Shown here piece by piece: positions 3,371 to 16,268 of a DNA stretch of 64,000 nt; within the stretch, counting starts at the first letter, position 1, and the number at the start of each line of letters is the position of its first letter. The stretch is from Candidatus Obscuribacterium magneticum (GTDB lineage Bacteria > Elusimicrobiota > Elusimicrobia > F11), in NCBI GenBank assembly GCA_020523905.1, contig JAJAPZ010000003.1, positions 1-64,000 of the forward strand, read 5' to 3'. Under the pieces are notes generated by a model. It was not told the origin of the DNA. It ran no database searches and saw only the letters and a program-made list of their open reading frames with translations. The position numbers and the translations under genes are program-made.

Positions 3371-3500
3371 GTCATTGCGAGCCCGCCGCAGGCGGACGAA
3401 GCGCTTTACGTCATTCCCGCGAAAGCGGGAATCCAGGACGTGAACACCGGAATGGATTCCCGCTTTCGCGGGAATGACGATTCACTTCGTTCACAATGAC
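3371..3500. repeat. Composite palindromic intergenic repeat (copy 1)
   Basis: Two perfectly complementary 26-base arms (3409-3434 and 3454-3479) flank a 19-base loop. Each arm is itself a small hairpin: an 8-bp stem ATTCCCGC/GCGGGAAT around GAAA (TTTC on the distal arm). An outer pair GTCATTG (3371-3377)/CAATGAC (3494-3500) encloses the unit, together with a GCCGCAGGCGG stretch. The 20-base hairpin fits the ATTCCC-N8-GGGAAT form known from neisserial dRS3 repeats. It lies between the convergent ends of metW and the reverse-strand glycosyltransferase, so it could also act as a bidirectional RNA hairpin. Confidence 0.85.
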
Positions 3501-8998: not shown

Positions 8999-9067
8999 CG
9001 TCATTCCGGCGAAAGCCGGAATCTAGGTGACGCCGAAAGGCGTCATCCCGACGAAAGTCGGGATGAC
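8999..9067. repeat. Three tandem GAAA-loop hairpins (repeat copy 2)
   Basis: Three perfect stem-loops follow each other, each closed by GAAA: 9003-9022 (8-bp stem ATTCCGGC), 9028-9045 (7-bp stem TGACGCC) and 9042-9067 (11-bp stem GTCATCCCGAC). The second and third share bases 9042-9045, so they compete. The unit is related to copies at 3371-3500 and 16171-16268. It fills most of the 100-base gap before metH. No T-run follows, so it is not a standard intrinsic terminator. Confidence 0.85.
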
Positions 9068-9091: not shown

Positions 9092-12000
9092 ATGAACCTC
9101 GAACAGTATAAGAAGACCCTCTCCGAGCGCATCCTCATCTTTGACGGGGCGATGGGGACCAACCTCCAGAAATTCAACCCCACGTTGGACGATTACCAAG
9201 GCAAAGAAGGCTGCATGGAGATTCTTAATCTCACCCATCCCGAGTGGGTGAAAGACGTCCATGCGAGTTTCTACAAGGTCGGTTGCGACGTCGTAGAAAC
9301 CAACTCCTTCGGTGCCAACCGGATTGTGCTGGGCGAATACGGCCTGGCGGAGAGAGCGATCGAATTGAACCGGAAGGCCGCTCAGATCGCCAGAGAAGCC
9401 GCCCGTGACTTTTCAACGCCGGACCATCCGCGCTACGTTGCCGGTTCCATTGGCCCCGGGACGAAGCTTCCTTCGCTCGGCCACACCACCTTCGACACCC
9501 TTCGCGAAAGCTATACAACCCAGTGCGAGGGCCTCCTGGAAGGCGGCGTGGATATCCTTCTCATTGAAACCTGCCAAGACCTTTTGCAGGTCAAAGCCGC
9601 CGTCAACGGTGCTTTGGACGCAATGAGAAAATTAAGAATCCAGGTGCCGCTCAATGTTCAGGTCACCATCGAATCGACCGGTACCATGCTTGTGGGCTCC
9701 GACATCGCCACTGCCATCAACGTCATCGAGTGCTTCCCCGTGGACACCATTGGCATCAACTGCGCCACAGGGCCCTTCGAGATGAGCGAGCACGTTCGGG
9801 CTCTGGGACAGCTTTCCACCCGATTTATCTCCGTCCTTCCCAACGCGGGGCTTCCTGAAAACGTGGGGGGAAAAGCCGTCTATAAATTGACGCCCCAAGA
9901 ACTGGCCTCCAACCTGGTTGAGTTTGCCACCAAGCATGGGGTCAATGTCGTAGGAGGCTGCTGCGGCACGACACCCGACCATCTAAAAGCCGTCGTGGAG
10001 GCCGTCCAGCCGCTCAAACCTCTAAGACGCCAGGTAAAAAAACCGGCGCAGGTCTCAAGTCTTTATCTGAGCACGCCCCTCCGGCAGGAGCCGGCGCCCC
10101 TCATTGTCGGCGAACGGACGAATGCGAACGGATCGAAGCAGTTCCGCGATCTTCTCAATGCCAATGACTACGATGCCCTGGTGACGGTCGCCAAAGAGCA
10201 GGAAGAGGAAGGGGCGCACGTCCTCGATGTCTGCACCGCTTATGTTGGGCGGGACGAATCGAAAGACATGTTTGAGACAATCAAGCGCTTCTCTCTCCAG
10301 ACACGCGTGCCTTTGATGATTGACTCCACCAACCCAGACGCGATTGAAACGGCCCTGAAATTACTGGGGGGGAAACCCATCGTCAACTCCATCAACCTGG
10401 AAGACGGGGAGGAACGACTCGCCAAAATCTGCCCGCTTCTTAAAACCTACGGGGCTGCTGTCGTGGCCTTGACGATCGACGAACAGGGCATGGCTAAAAC
10501 CGCCGACAAAAAACTGGAGGTGGCCAAACGAATATACAAGCTGTCTGTCGAAAAATACGGCCTCGCACCGTCCGATCTCATCTTCGACCCCCTCACCTTC
10601 ACCTTGGGTAGCGGCGACGAGGAATATCGTAAAGCCGCACGTGAAACGCTGGAAGGCATCCGCCGCATCAAAAAGGAATTTCCCGACGTACACACCCTCC
10701 TCGGCGTCAGTAACATTTCCTTCGGGCTCGCTCCGGTTGCTCGGGCCGTTTTAAACAGCGTCTTTCTCCATTACGCGGTTGAAGCGGGGCTGGACGCCGC
10801 CATTATTAACACCAAAAGAATCATGCCGCTTTTTAAAATCGATGAGAAAGGCCGAGAACTGGCCCGGCAGCTCATTTTTGATGAAAGAAAGCCGGGCTTT
10901 GACCCGTTAAAAGAATTCATGGCCACTTATGCCGATGCCAAGGAAACCCCGGGAAAAGCGCCGGCCCCCAAATCAATAGAGGAAGAATTAAAATATCGCA
11001 TTATCAATGGAAATAAACAGAATATTGAGAAAGTTATTGAACAAGCGCTGAGAAAATACCCATCCCTGGACATCATCAATAACATCCTTCTGGCGGGGAT
11101 GCGGAAAGTCGGGGAGCTTTTCGGCTCCGGCCAGATTCAGCTTCCCTTCGTTCTCCAATCGGCCGAAACAATGAGGGCCGCTGTGAAAATCCTGGAGCCA
11201 CATTTACCGAAGAACGGCGCCATCAAAAGCCGGGGGAAAATGGTTCTGGCCACGGTCAAAGGCGACGTCCACGACATTGGGAAAAACCTGGTGGACATCA
11301 TCCTCACCAATAACGGCTACACCATCATCAACCTCGGCATCAAGCAACCGATCGACAACATCATTAAGGCGGCTGAAGAGCACAAGCCGGACGCCATCGG
11401 CCTCTCAGGGCTTCTTGTTAAATCCACGGCGGTCATGAAGGAGGATTTGGAAGAGCTCAACAAGCGAAATCTCAAATACAAAGTCATTTTAGGGGGTGCC
11501 GCTTTAACCCGCAAGTTCGTCGAAGAAGATCTCCGCTCCCTTTATAAAGGAAAAGTCTTCTACGCGTCGGATGCCTTCGAAGGTCTCCGCCTCATGGACG
11601 AACTGACCCAGGAAAAGGCCCCGCCCTCCCCTCCACCTCCTCGCTGGGGAAAAAGGGCCCGGCCGGAGAAGTCCCTCGAAGCGGAGAGAAACCGGGGGAA
11701 GGGAAAAACGTCAATTCCACACTCCGCACTCCGCCTTCCGCATTCAAAATCGGCCCCCCTCCCCAAGCCCCCTTTCTTCGGCACCCGCGTCGTTCGGGGG
11801 ATCGACGTGAAAGAGGTTTTCCCCTACATCAACCAAACGGCCCTCCTCAAGGTCCGCTGGGGCTACAAGCGGGTTTCAACCAACACCGTCGAAGAGTACG
11901 AACGGTTGATCAACGAACAAGCCAAACCCCTGTACGAAAAATGGAAAAACACGGCGGTGCGGGAGGGCCTCTTCCGCCCGCAGGTGGTCTACGGCTACTT

Positions 12001-12556
12001 CCCTTGCCAGTCCGACGGCGATTCGCTCATCATTTACGGGGACGATCAAACCACCAAACGCCAGCGCTTCCTGTTCCCGCGGCAGAAGAGGGAGCCTTAT
12101 CTTTGCGTCTCCGATTTTTTCCGTCCCCTCGAATCCGATGAGATGGATGTGATCGGGATGATGATCGTGACCATCGGCCCTGACGCCACCCCCAAAACCA
12201 ACGAGCTCTACAAAAAAAACGCCTACACGGACTACCTGTTTTTGCACGGCCTCAGCGTTGAAACCGCGGAAGCCCTGGCCGAATACTGGCACAAGCGCAT
12301 GCGGGAGGAGCTTCATATCGCCGGCGCGGATGCCCACGATATACGCGATCTCTTTCATCAAAAATATCAGGGTTCCCGCTACAGCTTCGGCTACCCGGCC
12401 TGCCCCAACCTGGAGGACCAGGCCAAGCTGGTCGAACTGCTGGACCCCGCCCGCATCGGCGTCACGCTTTCCGAAACCTTCCAGCTCCAACCTGAACAAT
12501 CCGTCTCCGCCCTCATCGTCCCCCACCCCGCCGCCAAATACTTTTCCATTGAATAG
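9092..12556 (+). CDS. metH: Cobalamin-dependent methionine synthase
   Basis: A 1154-residue modular enzyme that methylates homocysteine from methyltetrahydrofolate via methylcobalamin. The homocysteine domain (1-310) has zinc ligands Cys224 (NCATGP) and Cys290-Cys291 (GGCCGTTPDH). A pterin-binding barrel occupies about 345-610. The B12 cap is near 640-730. The cobalt-ligating His727 is in GDVHDIGKN. The SAM-binding reactivation domain (about 895-1154) includes RYSFGYPACP. Between the B12 and reactivation domains the normal short linker is expanded by about 45 residues (843-888) of Pro/Arg/Ser-rich sequence that resembles repeat DNA (see separate entry). It needs homocysteine from metY/metX, encoded 6 kb upstream. 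Confidence 0.96.
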   Translation: MNLEQYKKTLSERILIFDGAMGTNLQKFNPTLDDYQGKEGCMEILNLTHPEWVKDVHASFYKVGCDVVETNSFGANRIVLGEYGLAERAIELNRKAAQIAREAARDFSTPDHPRYVAGSIGPGTKLPSLGHTTFDTLRESYTTQCEGLLEGGVDILLIETCQDLLQVKAAVNGALDAMRKLRIQVPLNVQVTIESTGTMLVGSDIATAINVIECFPVDTIGINCATGPFEMSEHVRALGQLSTRFISVLPNAGLPENVGGKAVYKLTPQELASNLVEFATKHGVNVVGGCCGTTPDHLKAVVEAVQPLKPLRRQVKKPAQVSSLYLSTPLRQEPAPLIVGERTNANGSKQFRDLLNANDYDALVTVAKEQEEEGAHVLDVCTAYVGRDESKDMFETIKRFSLQTRVPLMIDSTNPDAIETALKLLGGKPIVNSINLEDGEERLAKICPLLKTYGAAVVALTIDEQGMAKTADKKLEVAKRIYKLSVEKYGLAPSDLIFDPLTFTLGSGDEEYRKAARETLEGIRRIKKEFPDVHTLLGVSNISFGLAPVARAVLNSVFLHYAVEAGLDAAIINTKRIMPLFKIDEKGRELARQLIFDERKPGFDPLKEFMATYADAKETPGKAPAPKSIEEELKYRIINGNKQNIEKVIEQALRKYPSLDIINNILLAGMRKVGELFGSGQIQLPFVLQSAETMRAAVKILEPHLPKNGAIKSRGKMVLATVKGDVHDIGKNLVDIILTNNGYTIINLGIKQPIDNIIKAAEEHKPDAIGLSGLLVKSTAVMKEDLEELNKRNLKYKVILGGAALTRKFVEEDLRSLYKGKVFYASDAFEGLRLMDELTQEKAPPSPPPPRWGKRARPEKSLEAERNRGKGKTSIPHSALRLPHSKSAPLPKPPFFGTRVVRGIDVKEVFPYINQTALLKVRWGYKRVSTNTVEEYERLINEQAKPLYEKWKNTAVREGLFRPQVVYGYFPCQSDGDSLIIYGDDQTTKRQRFLFPRQKREPYLCVSDFFRPLESDEMDVIGMMIVTIGPDATPKTNELYKKNAYTDYLFLHGLSVETAEALAEYWHKRMREELHIAGADAHDIRDLFHQKYQGSRYSFGYPACPNLEDQAKLVELLDPARIGVTLSETFQLQPEQSVSALIVPHPAAKYFSIE
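11618..11755. repeat. Repeat-like insertion in the MetH interdomain linker
   Basis: This stretch encodes MetH residues 843-888, a low-complexity run unlike the rest of the protein. The DNA has C-rich then G-rich blocks (CCCTCCCC at 11624-11631, GGGGGAAGGG at 11694-11703) that can pair imperfectly. It then has a degenerate 7-base tandem array at 11714-11745 with units ATTCCAC, ACTCCGC, ACTCCGC, CTTCCGC and a partial ATTC. The 7-base period is out of step with codons, so the array did not arise as a peptide repeat. The frame stays open throughout. Confidence 0.65.
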
Positions 12557-16163: not shown

Positions 16164-16170
16164 CCCTTTT

Positions 16171-16268
16171 CGTCATTCCGGCGCAAGCCGGAATCTAGGC
16201 TTTAAACATGATTCTGGATCCCGACTTGCGTCGGGATGACGAAAGACATGGATTCCGCCGGAATGACG
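16171..16268. repeat. Palindromic intergenic repeat with GCAA loops (copy 3)
   Basis: An 8-bp ATTCCGGC stem with GCAA loop lies at 16175-16194. A second stem, ATCCCGAC around TTGC (GCAA on the other strand), lies at 16218-16237. A third, shortened element ends at 16268. The first is the same as the first hairpin of copy 2 except GAAA has become GCAA, which keeps the GNRA loop type. It fills the gap between secA and lnt. Confidence 0.8.

Follow-up and report, generated by a model that had tools for sequence, protein, structure and literature searches.

The DNA between the B12-binding and activation domains of the methionine synthase gene (metH) of Candidatus Obscuribacterium magneticum is probably an ordinary, fast-changing and disordered MetH linker (Linker IV) that carries a small, worn heptamer microsatellite, and no transposed 138-bp element is needed to explain it. 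The window, meaning the whole 64,000-nucleotide stretch of DNA that was analyzed, belongs to a metagenome-type assembly of 2.89 Mb in 137 contigs (completeness 71%, contamination 13%). Pfam searches of the 1154-residue MetH identified S-methyl_trans (homocysteine methyltransferase), Pterin_bind, B12-binding_2 (B12 cap), B12-binding at residues 716-809 and Met_synt_B12 (activation domain) at residues 906-1153. The 138 bases at 11618-11755 (the 138-mer), which a preliminary description of this DNA had taken for an insertion, lie inside the metH frame and, by the Pfam bounds, between the B12-binding and activation domains; both the coordinates and the open frame given in that description were confirmed. 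The features are as follows.

9092-12556, + strand: metH, cobalamin-dependent methionine synthase, 1154 aa, intact (open frame and Pfam domains)
11609-11764, + strand: variable linker from the B12 domain to the activation domain; predicted to be disordered, with 52 residues separating the anchors (alignment, length, pLDDT)
11618-11649, + strand: C-rich block with a short G run at its end, encoding the APPSPPPPRWG region (sequence)
11692-11703, + strand: G-rich block, the partner proposed for the C-rich block in the preliminary description (sequence)
11714-11745, + strand: degenerate 7-base repeat that matches (AYTCCGC)4AYTC at 30 of its 32 positions and translates to about IPHSALRLPHS (Tandem Repeats Finder, consensus fit)

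The gap immediately upstream of metH holds copies, at 8999-9064, of a dispersed palindromic repeat, CGTCATTCCSGCGAAAGCSGGAATC, which is also found in the window at 3409-3479 and 16170-16268. Allowing at most two mismatches, the repeat has 330 sites in the genome (174 forward, 156 reverse), and its reversed control has 0.

To compare linker lengths, we measured the span from the D of DAFEG to the G of PFFG in the window MetH and 30 aligned relatives, comprising 29 non-self loci and one KSB1 contig. The 29 loci come from a homologue search that matched 45 of 60 genomes, the source genome included, with lower-ranked matches left outside the alignment and no genome of the same genus among the 60. 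The window span is 71 residues and those of the relatives are 60-74 (median 65), including 66 and 74 in two same-family homologues that are 74% and 72% identical overall. The window linker is thus the second longest of the 31, with an excess over the median of about 6 residues rather than the 45 extra residues first proposed, a figure that is wrong because 71 falls within the range of the aligned relatives. Against the closest solved homologue, the Thermus-type 8ssc, the alignment likewise contains 16 gap positions in the linker, not 45. Across this region the relatives have a length in common but not a sequence, which counts against an inserted element.

The character of the stretch is also that of a tether. 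The residues P, K, R, A, S, E, G, T, Q and N make up 69-90% of the linker in the window protein and the eight relatives measured. An AlphaFold2 model of residues 701-1154, of modest quality (mean pLDDT 64.6, built from 8 sequences), gives residues 841-887 a pLDDT below 50 and shows the linker without secondary structure; other short segments of the same model also fall below 50. Based on the Pfam bounds and this low pLDDT, the stretch is predicted to be a MetH Linker IV, a flexible segment joining the cobalamin domain to the activation domain. Its position, flexibility and richness in Pro, Lys and Arg resemble those of Linker IV (Cob:Act) of cobalamin-dependent methionine synthases, and the P-x-P-P-F-F-G segment that follows it is present in both 8ssc and 8g3h, although the window Linker IV is about 16 residues longer than that of 8ssc and has another sequence. 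The 2023 report on a thermophile's MetH structure describes long flexible linkers and a Linker IV (Glu877-Ala897) that could not be modelled (PMC10567725). Movement of the cobalamin domain between its partners by such a tether is established for the MetH family and would be expected of the window protein.

Within the linker, the presence of a degenerate 7-base tandem array, as first described, was confirmed. Its units (ATTCCAC, ACTCCGC, ACTCCGC, CTTCCGC and a terminal ATTC) fit (AYTCCGC)4AYTC at 30 of 32 positions, and Tandem Repeats Finder (TRF) reports it with period 7, 3.9 copies, 80% matches and a score of 33, as one of 15 rows in the window; a bacterial heptanucleotide tandem repeat has at least three such head-to-tail units. 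Under independent bases the 32-base fit has a probability of about 2e-14 per position for a fixed pattern, which is optimistic, the (AYTCCGC) pattern having been chosen after the array was seen. When the whole window was shuffled 60 times, arrays that good (at least 3.5 copies, a score of at least 33 and a period of at least 4) arose in 6 shuffles; when the 138-mer was shuffled 5000 times, they arose in only 4. The rarity of the array therefore depends on the reference. The array is locally non-random and only mildly unusual for 64 kb.

The heptamer was then sought in other genomes. With at most 3 mismatches over 21 bases, the array patterns gave 16 matches at 10 places in five genomes (the source genome, three of the same family and one of the same class), four of which had a match, against 0 for the reversed-pattern control; several of the 10 places (G001 C11, G002 C75) resemble chance matches or natural coding sequence. 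At 3 mismatches the source genome has two other degenerate array places, on contigs C59 and C90 (control 0), and a 14-mer at no more than one mismatch has none outside metH (control 1). On contig C90, an ATTTCGC-type heptamer array comes immediately after a copy of the dispersed palindrome and lies either ahead of a reading frame or at its beginning. Allowing at most one mismatch, there was no enrichment of the heptamer in the class (3 matches in 3 of 235 genomes versus 5 control matches in 2 of 235) or of the ATTCCGC unit in the phylum (2 of 340 genomes versus 3 control matches in one genome).

Among the viral contigs of IMG/VR, an exact 24-base heptamer array occurs in 47 stretches, some of them near-duplicates or on one contig, compared with 20 for the reversed unit and 2, 11 and 13 for three scrambled units. 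The control heptamers form arrays too (contigs L129, L158, L166 and L168), some of them long, with 8 matches in L168; 7-base arrays in general are therefore frequent in viral contigs. The AYTCCGC heptamer is recurrent, yet not unique among heptamers. An association of such arrays with C-rich and G-rich blocks was not supported: 52 viral-contig arrays have 1.46 block words nearby versus 1.13 at 1040 random places, and three or more block words are found near 21% of the arrays versus 15% of the random places. No account of the heptamer or its peptides was found in print in the open-licence literature.

These counts bear on whether the array has a repeat history at all. A chance likeness to a repeat, arising in a C/T-rich linker of low complexity, is a somewhat unlikely explanation: it would fit the whole-window shuffles, a TRF score of only 33 in a window where 13 of the 15 TRF rows outscore the array or are unlike it, and the class search, where the heptamer was not enriched over its reversed control at up to one mismatch, but it sits poorly with the scarcity of such arrays among shuffles of the 138-mer itself, with the 30 of 32 positions that fit a heptamer recurring elsewhere, and with the excess over the control in the five near genomes. 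The first reading of this DNA is thus partly supported, insofar as a short degenerate heptamer array does lie inside the linker and belongs to a type that other genomes have too and that can lie in frame within a protein loop.

Heptanucleotide repeats have been described in other bacteria. GGGAATC-type heptamers of Xanthomonas and Nostoc prefer four units and are over-represented outside genes (PMC4692102), and TAACTGA repeats of Beggiatoaceae include 24 sets within or overlapping the coding regions of 25 proteins (PMC4679880). The window array resembles these, as described there, in its 7-base unit, its few (about four) copies and, for some of them, a location overlapping or inside reading frames, and it differs in having another unit, in being degenerate and in being few, whereas the described repeats are mostly intergenic and numerous per genome. 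In type it resembles them, with another unit.

Arrays of this heptamer are also found inside other proteins. In a genome of the same phylum, a DegT-type aminotransferase (locus L063, 118-1281, - strand) contains a nearly perfect in-frame ATTCCGC array that encodes SSAFRIPHSAF. The array gives rise to a 12-residue loop segment that is missing from a 51%-identical homologue; at the same loop site the structure 1mdo and a homologue of 40% identity are only 4 residues short, and 2fn6 is 12 short. The loop is naturally variable, and the case shows that heptamer arrays can sit in frame in a loop of a conserved enzyme. In viral contigs, 40 mechanically called frames contain an array, at 26 of 52 array places, and many of the 40 must be false because both strands of one array were counted. 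Three frame fragments were scanned, giving two weak PHROG matches (phrog_13246, E 0.00039; phrog_286, E 0.00052) and one fragment with no match. Two IMG/VR contigs (L064 and L072) have similar-looking stop-free frames in which an in-frame array follows a conserved W-A-R motif at a matching position, and the fragment from L064 weakly matches a replisome-organizer PHROG.

Arrays of ATTCCGC and ACTCCGC are free of stop codons in all six frames, a property of 8264 of the 16384 possible heptamers. This makes the open frame of the window array unsurprising; an open frame was retained in 4572 of 5000 shuffles of the 138-mer as well. The frame is intact despite the 7-base period, as had been pointed out, and no special explanation for that is called for. 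A broader and speculative idea, which we regard as unlikely, is that (AYTCCGC)n is a promiscuous repeat, stop-free in six frames, that recurs in unrelated bacteria and phages and supplies, again and again, DNA for new linker peptides (FRIPHSA or ECGMRNA repeats) by entering loops and linkers of proteins in frame, the MetH linker being an old, worn case, the L063 aminotransferase a fresh one and the similar-looking phage frames of L064 and L072 further instances.

The three nearest relatives (L005, L006 and L031) share a (D/E)KKLTxY-like linker start that the window protein does not have, and that part was therefore lost, eroded or replaced in this lineage, a point against the reading as an ordinary linker. 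The ancestral linker is not being read in another frame, as no KKLT-like segment is present in the other two forward frames. That a single event exchanged the ancestral linker for unrelated DNA of similar length, perhaps intergenic and open by chance, is improbable. The loss of the shared start would agree with it, as would the open frames common among shuffles of such DNA and the flat codon-position GC of the window linker (0.63/0.63/0.63), but the linker drifts in every aligned relative, such that gradual loss suffices, and no donor was found in the source genome at its completeness of 71%. The linker of a same-family relative (L006), moreover, is equally flat in GC (0.47/0.47/0.45); the "intergenic-looking" quality first ascribed to this DNA is therefore accurate as a description of its codon positions and is shared by the linker of that relative.

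The palindromic elements of Rickettsia, to which the stretch had been likened, are present in multiple dispersed genome copies, are palindromic with a stable stem-loop, and add an in-frame peptide that is absent from homologues. The likeness is that DNA of non-genic appearance lies in frame inside a conserved gene, here metH; the window stretch differs in having no significant hairpin, no family of copies and no net extra length. A search with the 138-mer at E up to 10 found no second copy in its own 71%-complete genome, the best other match being 22 bases long (E 0.0996), and a dispersed 138-bp element was rejected on this single copy. At E up to 0.01, a search of 231 genomes of the class, with three candidates scored per genome, gave one match of 21-36 bases in each of 8 genomes besides its own (E 0.001-0.008); this is somewhat more than the roughly 2 matches expected by chance, and we read these as short C-rich matches. 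The C-rich block at 11618-11649 has no near copy (at most 3 mismatches) in the window or in five genomes. The C-rich and G-rich blocks described as pairing imperfectly are both present, but the pairing is no more stable than that of shuffled sequence, either as DNA (z +0.85; 159 of 200 shuffles folded equally well or better) or as RNA of 11618-11710 (z +0.68; 152 of 200), and a stable hairpin was rejected. In-frame insertion of a mobile, Rickettsia-like palindrome of about 138 bp is accordingly a very remote prospect, having in its favor the low coding character of the DNA (the flat codon-position GC) and facing the lack of a second copy, of a fold better than shuffles and of any extra length to explain, in a genome whose true dispersed palindrome, at 330 sites, is a different sequence.

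The preferred reading, an ordinary Linker IV with a worn microsatellite, suggests the following course. The linker would serve as a flexible tether, rich in Pro, Lys, Arg and Ser, on which the cobalamin domain may move among the catalytic and activation domains. The length of the linker is kept near 60-74 residues, with the sequence free to drift, as the aligned relatives show. The drifting DNA in this lineage would include a short, now degenerate microsatellite built of AYTCCGC-like heptamers. Because the heptamer can be read through in every frame, an array of it may arise or grow within the linker, provided that the net change in length is a multiple of three. A disordered linker that changes fast in sequence but hardly in length can in this way account for an apparent element inside a conserved gene, and a stop-free heptamer microsatellite, translatable in any frame, may offer a simple route from simple repeats to the peptides of linkers or loops.
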